A DNA stretch of 64,000 bases from Acidovorax sp. RAC01 (GTDB lineage: Bacteria; Pseudomonadota; Gammaproteobacteria; Burkholderiales; Burkholderiaceae_C), in assembly GCF_001714725.1 (NCBI RefSeq), contig NZ_CP016447.1:248001-312000 (forward strand), in the 5' to 3' direction. Under the pieces are notes generated by a model. That model saw only the letters and a list, made by a program, of their open reading frames with translations, was not told the DNA's origin and made no database searches. This document shows positions 3,252-39,566 of this stretch, one piece after another. The translations under genes and the position numbers were made by a program. The number at the start of each line of letters is the position of its first letter. Position 1 is the first letter of the stretch.

Positions 3252-4310
3252 ATGTCCAAAACCTTTACTTCCCGCGTACCGGCGTGGCTGGCCGCACTGG
3301 CTGCCACAGGCGCCCTGGCTGGCTGCAGCAAGGCGGTTGTCCTGAACCCGGCGGGCGACGTGGCGTCGCAGCAGGGGCTTCTGGTCGTCCAGGCCACCGT
3401 GCTCATGCTGATCATCATCGTGCCGGTGATTGCATTGACGCTCTGGTTTGCCTGGAAATACCGGCACAACAACGCAGCCAACACCGAAGACGACTACGAC
3501 CCCGACTGGCACCACTCCACCACGCTGGAGCTGGTGATCTGGACGGTGCCGCTGCTGATCATCATCGCGCTGGGCGCGCTGACCTGGATCGGCACGCACA
3601 AGCTCGACCCGTACCGGCCGCTGGACCGTATCTCGGCCACCAAACCGCTGGCGCCGCAGGTCAAACCCCTGGAAGTGCAGGTGGTGGCCATGGACTGGAA
3701 ATGGCTGTTCTTCTACCCCGAGCAGGGCATTGCCACGGTGAACGAGCTGGCTGCGCCGGTCGACCGCCCCATCATCTTCAAGCTGACCGCCACCTCGACC
3801 ATGAACGCGTTTTTCGTGCCCGACCTGGCCGGGATGATCTACGCCATGCCCGGTATGCAGACCGAGCTGAACGCCGTGATCAACAAGCCCGGCGTGTACA
3901 AGGGGTTGTCTTCGCACTACAGCGGCGCGGGCTTTTCGGGCATGACGTTCAAGTTCCATGGCCTGAGCGACGCCGACTTTGCCCAATGGGTGCAGACCGC
4001 CAAAACCGAAGGCAAGGCGCTGGACAAGCAGACCTACCTGAACCTCGTCAAGCCCAGCACGCGCGACCCGGTGCAGCGTTTCGGCCGCGTGGAAGAAGGC
4101 CTGTACAACAAGGTGCTCAACCGCTGCGTCGAAGACGGCCAGATGTGCATGCACCACATGATGGTGATCGACGAGCGCGGTGGCGAAGCCTACATGCGCG
4201 CCGCCGGCCTGAACCTGCCGCAGGACGTGTGCACGTCGCAAAACGCCGACCAGGTGGTGGCCACGCTCGAAGCCCAGCTGGCCGCGCCCGCACGGGCCAC
4301 TGCGCAATGA
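3252..4310 (+). CDS. cyoA: Cytochrome bo-type ubiquinol oxidase subunit II
   Basis: CyoA is the membrane-anchored subunit II of the heme-copper quinol oxidase. The 352-residue product starts with a lipoprotein signal ending LAGC (Cys25), has two membrane helices (about residues 43-68 and 90-112), and a periplasmic cupredoxin-like domain. The CuA-binding Cys pair of cytochrome c oxidases is absent; the equivalent stretch reads SHYSGAGFSGMTFK, which marks a quinol rather than cytochrome c oxidase. A C-terminal COX-ARM-like extension follows. It opens the cyoABCD-SURF1 operon. No strong ribosome binding site precedes the ATG. Confidence 0.95.
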   Translation: MSKTFTSRVPAWLAALAATGALAGCSKAVVLNPAGDVASQQGLLVVQATVLMLIIIVPVIALTLWFAWKYRHNNAANTEDDYDPDWHHSTTLELVIWTVPLLIIIALGALTWIGTHKLDPYRPLDRISATKPLAPQVKPLEVQVVAMDWKWLFFYPEQGIATVNELAAPVDRPIIFKLTATSTMNAFFVPDLAGMIYAMPGMQTELNAVINKPGVYKGLSSHYSGAGFSGMTFKFHGLSDADFAQWVQTAKTEGKALDKQTYLNLVKPSTRDPVQRFGRVEEGLYNKVLNRCVEDGQMCMHHMMVIDERGGEAYMRAAGLNLPQDVCTSQNADQVVATLEAQLAAPARATAQ

Positions 4311-36692: not shown

Positions 36693-37868
36693 TCAGAACA
36701 GGCTGGCCTGCCCCTGAAGATTGCCCGGGCGGAACTGGCCCAGGTCCAGCGCCTGCCGCTCGCGGTTGAGCCCCAGGGTGCGGCAGGCCCTGGCAAAGCG
36801 CTGGCGCAGCAGGTCGGCCCACAGGCCGCTTCCTTTCATGCGCTGCGCGAAATCGCTGGTGTAGGCCTTGCCAGCCGTGCGCTGGGCGTCGCTCAGGTTG
36901 TGCAGGTCCTGCACCCGGGCCATCACGCGGGCGGCGCGCTGCGGGTAGTGCACCTGCAGCCATTCGCGAAACAGCGCGTCCAGCTCCCATGGCAGGCGCA
37001 GCACGGTGTAGAAGGCACTGGTGGCGCCTGCATCGCGCGCGGCCTGCAGCACCTGCTCCATGTCTTCGTTGATGAACGGAATCTGCGGGGCCACGCTCAC
37101 ACCCACCGGTATGCCCGCCTCGGCCAGCCTGCGGATGGTGCGCAGCCGCCGGTGCGGCGCCGCAGCGCGCGGCTCCATGCGCCGCGCCAGGGCCGGGTCC
37201 AGCGTGGTGATGGTGACGTACACCGCAGCCAGCCGCCGGGCGGCGAGCGGGGCCAGCAGGTCCAGGTCGCGCTCGACGCCACTGGATTTGGTGATGAGCG
37301 AAAACGCATGGCCCGCCCGGCCCAGTACTTCGATCACGCTGCGCGTGAGCTTCAGCTCGCGCTCCACGGGCTGGTAGCAGTCGGTGGCCGAGCCGATGTT
37401 GAGCATGCGCGGCACGTAGCGCGGCTGGCACAGCTCGTCGCGCAGGACCTCTGCAATGTTGTGCTTGGCGATGATCCGCGTTTCAAAGTCGAGCCCCGGC
37501 GAAAAGTTGAGGTAGCTGTGCGTGGGCCGCGCATAGCAGTAGATGCAGCCGTGCTCGCACCCGCGGTAGGGGTTGACGGACTGGTCGAACGCAATGTCGG
37601 GCGAGTCGTTGGCACACAGGGCGCTGCGGGCGGTTTCAAAGTGCACCTGCGTGGCGGGCGCTGAGATACCGTTGCCAGGGCCATCGCCTGGCATGTCATC
37701 TGCGCCCGGCGCATCCCAGCCGTCGTCCACCACCGCACGCTCCTCGCGCGCAAAGCGGTGCGCCATGCCACTGCCGGTGCCCCGGCCATGGAGCAGCACA
37801 GGCGCGGGCCGCACGGATTCGGCCGGGTCCGGCGGGAAGGCGGAGCGGTCGATGGTGATGCGGTCCAT
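36693..37868 (-). CDS. Radical SAM protein, PA0069 / SPL-related family
   Basis: The 391-residue protein has the radical SAM cluster motif CEHGCIYC within NPYRGCEHGCIYCYARPTH, typical of the PA0069 group, which is distantly related to spore photoproduct lyase. The family is widespread in proteobacteria and its biochemical role is not settled; a link to DNA damage is suspected. The ATG at 37868 is preferred over a TTG two codons upstream, with GGA 11 nt before it. A split LexA box begins 33 bp upstream, and an IS1595-family element now occupies the promoter region. Confidence 0.85.
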   Translation of the reverse strand: MDRITIDRSAFPPDPAESVRPAPVLLHGRGTGSGMAHRFAREERAVVDDGWDAPGADDMPGDGPGNGISAPATQVHFETARSALCANDSPDIAFDQSVNPYRGCEHGCIYCYARPTHSYLNFSPGLDFETRIIAKHNIAEVLRDELCQPRYVPRMLNIGSATDCYQPVERELKLTRSVIEVLGRAGHAFSLITKSSGVERDLDLLAPLAARRLAAVYVTITTLDPALARRMEPRAAAPHRRLRTIRRLAEAGIPVGVSVAPQIPFINEDMEQVLQAARDAGATSAFYTVLRLPWELDALFREWLQVHYPQRAARVMARVQDLHNLSDAQRTAGKAYTSDFAQRMKGSGLWADLLRQRFARACRTLGLNRERQALDLGQFRPGNLQGQASLF

Positions 37869-37900
37869 GGGCAAAGTCCAGAGTGGCAGGCAGCGTAAAA

Positions 37901-37912
37901 CTGTTTATTTAT
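37901..37912 (-). promoter_or_regulatory. Left remnant of a LexA (SOS) box, interrupted by the IS
   Basis: CTGTTTATTTAT is followed immediately by the IS left end. Joining it to the ACAG at 39009-39012 gives CTGTTTATTTATACAG, a perfect CTGT-N8-ACAG LexA operator. The left copy now ends in AAGG, so it has lost one half-site. Confidence 0.7.
37905..37912. repeat. 8-bp target-site duplication, left copy
   Basis: TTATTTAT directly precedes the IS left end and is repeated exactly at 39001-39008. Eight base pairs is the usual duplication for the IS1595 family. Confidence 0.85.
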
Positions 37913-39000
37913 AAGGGGTATCTATTTAGCTCCAGCAGCCTCACTGCTACTGTGATTTCATCCAGCAATGGTATCCGATTGCCTCTCCCCGGTGTTCTTG
38001 CCCACGACATCCCCATACGTCACTGGCGGCGTAACCACCGCTTGCTGCAGCAAGCGGTAAAACAGCATCCCGCGTGAGCTGGATGTGCGCCGGTTGAAAC
38101 GGAACACGAATTCATCGAGATAGGCATCCAGGTGGTCTGGCTGTACAGAGCCATGATGCGTTCCGAGCACCCAGCGCTGTACCAATGAGGCGACCCGGTG
38201 CACTCCCGCCATGGAGACATGGGCGGGTACGCCTGAGCCGAGCATGACGGTGCGCTGGTGGGTGTAACCCAGTTCTCCCAGAGCGCGGTATGCCGCCGAA
38301 CCATCAGTGCGGACCTGGGCTCCGGGCTCGATCACCTCCTGCACGAAGGGAATGACGTGGGTGGCGGCGTCTCGGTCAATGCGGCGTAACCGGATGCGTC
38401 CAAACCCCTTGGGCTCCACGATCTCCACCGCCATGACCATCAACACTTTGGTGGTGCTGCTCTTGCGCCCTGCAGGGGTGGCGGGACTCTTGCGATCCGT
38501 GATGGACAGGTACGTTTCATCCACCTCCACAAGCCCCTTGAGCTTGTCCCGGCCCGGGCGGACCATGGCACGTCGAAACCGGTGCAGCATGGTCCAGGCG
38601 GTCTGGTAGCTCCCCAAACCCAATACGCGCTGCAGCCCCAGGGCGCTCACGCCTTGTTTCTGATTGGTCAGGTACCAAGCTGCCGCCAGCCAGACACGCA
38701 GCGGTGTGCGCGTCTTGTCGAAGATGGTCCCAGAGGTCACTGTGCCTTGGTACTGGCATGAGCGGCACATCAGGCGGGTGCGGCTGGCTCGGTACACATC
38801 ACCTGCGTTGCCGCAACGCGGGCAGACGAAGCCTTGGGGCCAGCGAAGCTTCTCCAGGAACGCCTGGCAGGCCTCTTCGGTGGCAAACCAGTCAAGAAAT
38901 TCGTTCCAGGTGCGGGGGTAGTCCTGTCCAGGAGTTGGCGTTAGCATCTGGGTTTCCATCCAGCTATTCTGATGCAGCTGGAGCTAAATAGATACCCCTT
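37913..39000 (-). mobile_element. IS1595-family insertion sequence, complete, 1088 bp
   Basis: The element is bounded by perfect 24-bp terminal inverted repeats (37913-37936 and 38977-39000) that start AAGGGGTATCTATTTAGC. Both ends are flanked by the direct repeat TTATTTAT. It contains a single intact transposase gene on the minus strand. Identical duplications and intact repeats suggest a recent insertion. It lies between a radical SAM gene and rnk and separates the two halves of a LexA box. Confidence 0.93.
37958..38959 (-). CDS. IS1595-family transposase (ISXO2-like)
   Basis: The 333-residue transposase has an N-terminal zinc ribbon (CPRCGNAG...CRSCQYQG, about 46-70) and an ISXO2-type DDE domain: the first Asp in VEVDETYLS, the second in VRTDGSAAYRAL and the Glu in YLDEFVFRFNRR. 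All catalytic residues and the frame are intact, so the element may be active. The first ATG (38959, METQM) is used; a second lies four codons on. Confidence 0.92.
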   Translation of the reverse strand: METQMLTPTPGQDYPRTWNEFLDWFATEEACQAFLEKLRWPQGFVCPRCGNAGDVYRASRTRLMCRSCQYQGTVTSGTIFDKTRTPLRVWLAAAWYLTNQKQGVSALGLQRVLGLGSYQTAWTMLHRFRRAMVRPGRDKLKGLVEVDETYLSITDRKSPATPAGRKSSTTKVLMVMAVEIVEPKGFGRIRLRRIDRDAATHVIPFVQEVIEPGAQVRTDGSAAYRALGELGYTHQRTVMLGSGVPAHVSMAGVHRVASLVQRWVLGTHHGSVQPDHLDAYLDEFVFRFNRRTSSSRGMLFYRLLQQAVVTPPVTYGDVVGKNTGERQSDTIAG

Positions 39001-39012
39001 TTATTTATACAG
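39001..39012. repeat. 8-bp target-site duplication, right copy, with right half of the LexA box
   Basis: TTATTTAT (39001-39008) duplicates the left flank and is followed by ACAG (39009-39012), the missing half of the SOS box. Here the left half CTGT is replaced by IS sequence, so neither side keeps a complete box. Confidence 0.8.
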
Positions 39013-39152
39013 TATTTTGCCGTTGCCGCCATGGACTGCCCGGCACCGCCTGGGGTGCGCGTGCGTTCACCAGTGAAGACCGCGCGTGGCAGTGCGAGAT
39101 TCGCGATGGTCTACAGTCGCGCGCTTTGCAACCACCACAAGGTAGTTCCGCC

Positions 39153-39566
39153 ATGGCGCGCAAGCCCTCCATCCTCCTGTCATCGCTTGATGTCGACCGC
39201 ATCGAATCCCTGCTGGCCGTGATTCCGGCCAATGCGTTTCCGGGCAAGGCCGAGCTGCAGGCAGAGCTCGACCGGGCAGACGTGGTGCCGCCCGAAGAAA
39301 TCCCGCCCAACGTGGTCACGATGAACTCCACCGTGCAGTTCTCGATCGTGGAAACCGGCAAGGAGTTCTGCCTGACGCTGGTCTACCCGCGTGATGCCGA
39401 TGGGAGCGCCGACAAGCTGTCTGTGTTTGCGCCCGTGGGCAGCGCGCTGCTGGGGCTTTCGGTGGGGGATGAACTGGCTTGGCCGGGCCCCGGCGGCAAG
39501 ACGATGACGGTGCGGGTCAAGGCGCTTTTGTTCCAGCCGGAAAGCGCTGGCGAACTGCACCGCTGA
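39153..39566 (+). CDS. rnk: Nucleoside diphosphate kinase regulator
   Basis: Rnk is a GreA/GreB-related RNA-polymerase-interacting protein first described as a regulator of nucleoside diphosphate kinase. The 137-residue product has a short N-terminal helical region (SSLDVDRIESLLAVIP) and the C-terminal FKBP-like GreA/B domain with VTMNSTVQF and LSVFAPVGSALLGLSVGDEL, typical of the family. The ATG at 39153 is preferred over one nine codons upstream because it gives the family-like start MARKPSILLS. It lies 152 bp from the IS right end, divergent from the radical SAM gene. Confidence 0.87.
   Translation: MARKPSILLSSLDVDRIESLLAVIPANAFPGKAELQAELDRADVVPPEEIPPNVVTMNSTVQFSIVETGKEFCLTLVYPRDADGSADKLSVFAPVGSALLGLSVGDELAWPGPGGKTMTVRVKALLFQPESAGELHR

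Follow-up and report, generated by a model that had tools for sequence, protein, structure and literature searches.

An insertion sequence (IS) that separates the two halves of a LexA operator may have landed there by accident or may select such operators as its target, and a radical SAM locus of Acidovorax sp. RAC01 raises this question. The locus lies in the window, by which we mean the whole 64-kb stretch of contig NZ_CP016447.1 that was analysed. The element occupies positions 37913..39000 (1088 bp, transposase on the minus strand) and was classed as ISCsp2-like from its sequence and from its full-length (1088 bp) DNA identity of 96.9% with a copy in NZ_CP080763, where the name ISCsp2 comes from the plasmid annotation.

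A split operator upstream of a PA0069-family gene

The terminal inverted repeats (AAGGGGTATCTATTTAGCTCCAGC; 37913..37936 on the plus strand and 38977..39000 on the minus strand) are perfect over 24 bp, with a mismatch at the 25th base. Between them lies a gene for a 333-residue transposase (37958..38959, minus strand) of the IS1595 family, as shown by matches to NF033547 (186.9 bits, cutoff 75), to the DDE_Tnp_IS1595 domain (PF12762) and to an N-terminal zinc ribbon (PF12760). The element thus combines the DDE transposase and zinc ribbon, terminal repeats and 8-bp target site duplication (TSD) that define an IS1595-family member. The two TSD copies, TTATTTAT, are found at 37905..37912 and 39001..39008 and correspond to the N8 of a CTGT-N8-ACAG box, the pattern given as the LexA consensus of beta- and gammaproteobacteria in two papers (PMC6595937, PMC13393415).

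The left half-site (CTGT) was located at 37901..37904 and the right half-site (ACAG) at 39009..39012, so that both junctions carry one half-site each, the left ending in AAGG and the right beginning with CCTT. Joining the flanks without the IS and one TSD copy restored CTGTTTATTTATACAG, a perfect CTGT-N8-ACAG with an AT-rich spacer, whose outer base precedes the A of the radical SAM ATG (37868) by 33 nt. This gene (36693..37868, minus strand) belongs to the PA0069 family (NF033668, 417.8 bits, cutoff 360), and its open reading frame could be extended to a TTG at 37874. The divergent neighbour (39153..39566, plus strand) encodes an rnk-like nucleoside diphosphate kinase regulator (NF004396, 151.2 bits, cutoff 109). 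No intact CTGT-N8-ACAG was left within the 64-kb window, and the element itself contained no exact LexA box and two with one mismatch. An earlier, sequence-only reading of this DNA had described an IS with perfect 24-bp repeats and an 8-bp duplication on both sides, an exact operator 33 bp upstream of the gene once the IS and one duplication are removed, and AAGG and CCTT junctions that each fail to retain both half-sites; its coordinates were accurate where checked, and the reconstruction and the junctions came out as it had them.

The empty site was found in G1016 (locus L219), the closest congener among 40 sampled, in which the IS is absent, the box is intact and identical to CTGTTTATTTATACAG, the radical SAM protein is 94% identical and a 134-nt ungapped alignment crosses the junction at 87% identity. 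The region around the start codon was also read in 58 orthologues, split equally between other genera of the family and congeners (29 each) and drawn from the 77 relatives with a match (41 + 36, not counting the own genome). CTGT-N8-ACAG was matched exactly in 41/58 and within one mismatch in 53/58, compared with 0/58 and 6/58, respectively, for a reversed-motif control in the same relatives. Of the five loci beyond one mismatch, all counted among the 58, L218 and L241 have little or no upstream sequence and L193 is occupied at this site by an IS of the same clade. The start of the L241 contig resembles the IS directly upstream of this congener's PA0069 gene, which suggests another hit in the same operator. 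Eight insertions precede a PA0069-family gene in eight genomes (our own, L040, L060, L071, L075, L087, L092 and L116).

PA0069 belongs to the LexA regulon of Pseudomonas aeruginosa; a search of open-licence PMC papers found none linking PA0069 with LexA. The earlier proposal that an uninterrupted box would be present at this locus in relatives without the IS was borne out by L219 and by the 53 of 58 relatives just described. Its further proposal, that the radical SAM gene was SOS-controlled, is supported insofar as the gene has a conserved LexA-type operator; the accompanying notion of a one-off insertion did not hold. Judging from the DNA, the LexA-type operator of this gene is destroyed as such, and the insertion has probably perturbed LexA control of the adjacent gene. 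As the sequence-only reading proposed, the gene may now be uncoupled from LexA or driven by an IS promoter. Because the box is conserved and eight insertions lie before the gene, the case for a putative DNA-damage role of the PA0069 radical SAM family is strengthened.

Insertion sites of the element and its relatives

The Acidovorax sp. RAC01 genome contains three identical copies of the IS, and 3/3 split a CTGT-N8-ACAG box with the N8 as the TSD; at one of the two other copies the TSD agrees at 7/8 positions, with a single mismatch between the duplicates. One of these boxes (L002) lies between a SRAP gene and a UmuD-like (S24) gene, and the other (L001) adjoins another SRAP gene. Across the 4.57 Mb of this genome there are 26 exact instances of the 16-bp pattern, of which 23 are intact and 3 split, and a random insertion would be expected to hit one with a probability of about 6e-6. 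Three of three copies in such a pattern is therefore not chance.

Sites of related elements were pooled from a scan of named genomes and from other genomes and collections. We required a transposase at least 63% identical, an in-register terminal repeat (at least 18/22) and a TSD agreeing at 7/8 or better; loci with tblastn scores of 300 bits or less, with a called TSD starting GGGT (a misregister) or with no in-register repeat or TSD were dropped beforehand. Removing 7 rows whose flanks were the same as those of another row reduced 61 sites to 54, which include the window's own site, with L001 and L002 counted apart. The box was exact at 41 of these 54 sites, within one mismatch at 52 and within two at 53. 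Stricter merging of look-alike flanks in either orientation left 52 clusters (39 exact, 50 within one mismatch and 51 within two). The named-genome scan gave a similar picture for its best 80 of 363 loci, with transposases 65-98% identical. IS ends were picked here by repeat match and TSD agreement, the half-site not being used, and among these best 80 loci CTGT was found in register at the left end exactly in 62/75 and within one mismatch in 69/75, and ACAG at the right end in 55/69 and 68/69, respectively. Seven ends were exceptional, either with no half-box (L066, L080, L117) or with one shifted by 1-2 nt (L081, L088, L104, L115).

Named hosts with box-labelled sites included Comamonadaceae, Burkholderiaceae, Sphaerotilaceae, Rhodocyclaceae, Pseudomonadaceae, Halieaceae and Chromatiaceae, among others, and all named hosts of the targeting clade were beta- or gammaproteobacteria, bar one Sphingobium plasmid. 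The copies on that plasmid were considered as separate alphaproteobacterial insertions and rejected as such, since they look like one tandem amplification together with the IS91-type element ISPps1. No match to the element at E 1e-5 was found in phage records (blastn) or E. coli genomes (megablast).

Several further copies are altered or partial. At L044 and L077 the spacers differ between the two ends, each beside a half-box, as expected if copies in different boxes had recombined. A 311-bp IS remnant (L124 and matches H9-H16) is present in eight plasmid records from different hosts and is apparently an old shared insertion. A near-full copy on plasmid L123 adjoins a SRAP gene, and on Aromatoleum aromaticum plasmid 2 an IS-like fragment (L255, 2501-2799; 71% DNA identity) stops about 95 nt short of the umuD gene in a umuDC pair.

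As controls, we used 27 sites of IS1595 elements with transposases less than 55% identical and an 8-bp TSD. None (0/27) came within three mismatches of the box, the best having four. One control-range element (G813; 54% identity, four copies) was at sites without a box in 4/4 cases despite carrying nearly the same outer repeat, AAGGGGTATCCATG; the repeat tip therefore does not explain the targeting. More distant relatives, on plasmids, in an alphaproteobacterium (L251), in actinobacteria (L252, L253) and in a gammaproteobacterium (L254), either had no box or had indistinct ends. In several other IS1595 elements with CCTGATTA ends (among L017-L037), the 8-bp TSD is preceded by CA and followed by TG, perhaps a weaker preference of their own.

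The preference followed the transposase phylogeny. In a tree of 107 transposases, 39 of which carry no target label, one branch (support 100/99) parts 45 box-labelled rows from 23 non-box rows. Shuffling of the labels never produced as few changes (0/500), but near-copies inflate this test, and the branch support is for that reason the better evidence. When 75 clade transposases (at least 63% identical, labelled or not) were compared with 11 relatives, the most conspicuous difference was that the loop behind the first conserved DDE-domain Asp is longer in the clade (YLxITDRxxPxxxxGRKS) than in the relatives (YIGG...GRG), the catalytic residues being assigned from family resemblance only. Further clade-distinctive positions include W18, Y96, D155, S221 and P274. 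A search of PDB sequences returned no credible relative of the transposase (best E 0.94).

These comparisons bear on two explanations that dispense with target selection. The sequence-only reading had framed the locus as a single accident in the operator of the radical SAM gene, with only local interest; the site and its structure are as it described, but the same register recurs at the two other own copies and 52/54 sites, the window's included, lie within one mismatch of the box. The 3/3 own copies in a pattern present at 26 genomic places, and the contrast of 52/54 with 0/27 controls, rule out such an accident, to which we give practically no credence, and the one-operator framing falls with it. 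Alternatively, the elements could insert at random and the copies in boxes be retained as harmless or beneficial, which would suit the position of the boxes upstream of genes, with coding sequence spared. However, other IS1595 elements persist at unrelated sites (27/27 boxless), and selection for promoter insertions would not predict exact register, as seen for all three own copies in a 16-bp motif so rare in the genome; we regard retention of this kind as very improbable. We conclude instead that the transposase of the ISCsp2-like IS1595 clade almost certainly selects LexA operators (SOS boxes) as its target.

Genes beside the insertion sites

Length and codon bias served as crude criteria for calling the outward open reading frames (ORFs) that flank the sites, and 86 of the 89 selected ORFs were tallied, leaving out two duplicates and L102. 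Matches to NCBIfam models, whose families overlap, were to PA0069 (7), ImuA (6), the LexA model (3), the UmuD model (3), IS91 (3), error-prone DnaE-type polymerase (2), DinG (2), UmuC (2) and rSAM_link_UDG (2). The insertions lie beside genes for RecA (L058) and for LexA itself (L083), and beside those for ImuA (L042, L063, L076, L099), UmuD (L055), an S24/UmuD-like protein (L057), DnaE-type (dnaE2-type) polymerases (L088, L093), Pol II (polB, L119), a Y-polymerase (L100), a Y-polymerase domain (L065) and a Y-polymerase-like protein whose match is below the curated cutoff (L059). Repair functions are further represented by DNA ligase (L096), UvrD (L107), a UvrA-like protein (L108), FAN1 (L106), rSAM_link_UDG (L090, L115), DinG-like proteins (L045, L070; below the curated cutoff and cut to 600 aa) and a DEAD_2 helicase (L091; Rad3 match below the curated cutoff). 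The remaining assignments are GyrI-like (L047), IS91 (L044), IS91/ISCR-like (L098, below the curated cutoff) and ISPps1 (L043 and L048, by sequence).

A recognised SOS or repair neighbour was present at 33/54 sites. Nine of the 21 without one (L012, L049, L069, L073, L085, L114, L174, L176 and L248) were outside the neighbour scan, and the other 12 (L041, L046, L050, L053, L054, L062, L067, L084, L095, L097, L105 and L112) were scanned on crude ORF calls and gave no SOS or repair match. Some neighbours are unlike textbook SOS genes, namely a peroxiredoxin (L041), a PLP-dependent enzyme (L046) and a protein with an Xre/MbcA antitoxin domain (L097). The SOS gene followed the transposase downstream in the same direction at 22 sites, and at 10 the two were divergent, a weak bias on sides assigned by hand from which we draw no conclusion. 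The insertions at L106, L090, L115, L047 and L119 mark LexA-type boxes before FAN1, rSAM_link_UDG, GyrI-like and Pol II genes, which we list as candidate SOS genes.

On plasmids, the IS was found just upstream of the IS91-type transposase gene of ISPps1, an element that we take to be close to ISCR8. Intact ISPps1 copies (L268, L269) carry CTGTGCATTTGTACAG, at 298-313 in L268 and 5 nt before the ATG, and the same box is split by the IS in L120 (about 4081-4105), L043 and L048, the last two with opposite IS orientations in one Acidovorax temperans genome. According to a 2026 paper (PMC13393415), the promoters that drive the transposase genes of ISCR1, ISCR2 and ISCR8 are bound by E. coli LexA via CTGT-N8-ACAG and are induced by the SOS response. 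With its exact LexA-type box so close to the transposase ATG, ISPps1, an IS91-type element of catabolic plasmids, is probably SOS-controlled in the same way as ISCR1, 2 and 8.

Operator recognition and known targeting systems

Genome sequence establishes the specificity and the register of insertion, the confinement of this specificity to one clade of the transposases sampled, and the SOS or repair identity of many neighbours; we next consider how the target might be recognised. A logo of 53 sites gave ATACTGT-ATATATAT-ACAGT by commonest base, which we take to be the classical LexA consensus, alternating spacer included. These sites were preselected as having no more than two mismatches (the 54th is out of register), and among them the T and G of CTGT, like the C and A of ACAG, never vary (53/53), whereas C stands at 98% and the final G at 96%. 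Where mismatches occurred, most affected the half-site base nearest the spacer (CTGG, CCAG, TCAG), a pattern shared with the 12 PA0069 boxes of relatives that have one mismatch. The occupied N8 averaged 6.3/8 A/T, compared with 3.0/8 in the 23 unoccupied exact sites, which are from this genome only (Mann-Whitney p 7e-10); 18 of those 23 have four or fewer A/T in the spacer.

Such a bias could reflect a preference of the transposase for DNA shape, namely a palindrome whose core of alternating A/T is flexible, LexA boxes being merely the best examples. The strong A/T excess of N8 and a handful of sites lacking an obvious SOS gene (L041, L046, L097) would fit a shape preference, but the near-invariant CTGT and ACAG bases of the logo sites, preselected though these were, look like base reading, and we consider shape by itself an improbable basis for the targeting. 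Protein guidance would be a second possibility, with operator-bound LexA recruiting the transposase. The variation among targets resembles that of natural operators, down to the innermost-base mismatches shared with the PA0069 boxes, and many occupied sites are SOS promoters, both of which would be expected of recruitment by LexA. The insertion points lie at the inner edges of the half-sites, positions that would be expected to be covered when a LexA dimer is bound; this argues against a recruiting role of LexA and suggests that insertion requires an unoccupied operator. In addition, the specificity follows the transposase clade, and the G813 element was boxless in 4/4 cases, in a host whose LexA may be of another type. 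On balance we find recruitment by LexA unlikely.

We favour a transposase that reads the operator DNA directly, which we consider reasonably likely. The register of insertion is nearly constant, with cleavage at the inner edges and an 8-bp stagger centred on the dyad, and this fits a symmetric assembly reading the palindrome itself. In such a model, a symmetric transposase assembly would contact CTG/CAG and the alternating A/T spacer, and strand transfer would take place at the inner edges of both half-sites, making the N8 spacer the TSD and leaving each IS end 8 bp from one half-site. The clade-specific loop after the first conserved DDE Asp would be a candidate for the target reader. Taken as a whole, an operator-selecting transposase clade, symmetric direct reading and loss of the operator together form a quite probable account of the data.

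If this account is correct, a one-gene DDE element recognises about eight fixed bases plus an A/T spacer, and the clade would be useful for studying how target choice evolves, having relatives in the same family that lack the preference. Its insertions would constitute a recurrent natural route to split operators of SOS genes, including recA, lexA and those for error-prone polymerases, and a natural marker of LexA operators, by which PA0069, FAN1 and ISPps1 would join the candidate SOS regulon of these hosts. Target occupancy would also provide a direct link between DNA damage and IS movement. More speculatively, the IS may be a parasite of the SOS regulon: LexA would shield its targets and damage-driven LexA cleavage open many of them, so that availability gates transposition, each jump rewires one SOS gene, and SOS boxes on plasmids (umuD, IS91/ISCR promoters) offer a route between hosts. 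We put this forward tentatively, as an idea that is somewhat doubtful at present.

Target-specific insertion sequences are already known, but to our knowledge they are few and none homes on operators belonging to a global stress regulon, a kind of IS target that we have not seen described. REP-targeting ISs, attC-targeting elements and the res-site-hunting transposons of the Tn5053 type insert in a defined, often palindromic, multi-copy sequence, and we know of none among them that targets operators of a global stress regulon. Among the open-licence PMC papers listed, we found no report of an IS with LexA boxes as its target preference, and a literature search on ISCsp2 likewise found no LexA-box preference reported. 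The ISCsp2 copy in NZ_CP080763 has the same length, repeats and 8-bp TSD and likewise lies in a CTGT-N8-ACAG box. Other IS1595-family elements share the transposase family, terminal repeats and 8-bp TSD, whereas all 27 of their control sites were boxless. ISCR1, 2 and 8 share with our element a connection between an IS and CTGT-N8-ACAG, but LexA regulates their transposase gene (PMC13393415), whereas here the box is the insertion target. The closest published analogue that we found is the promoter-upstream insertion of Mutator-like elements: TnGBS and the p-MULT 3/4 elements insert about 13-17 bp upstream of sigma-A promoters, a transposase-determined placement upstream of genes that is tied to a transposase signature (PMC3942029). 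Unlike TnGBS and p-MULT as described there, the ISCsp2-like clade splits the operator of one repressor at its centre.
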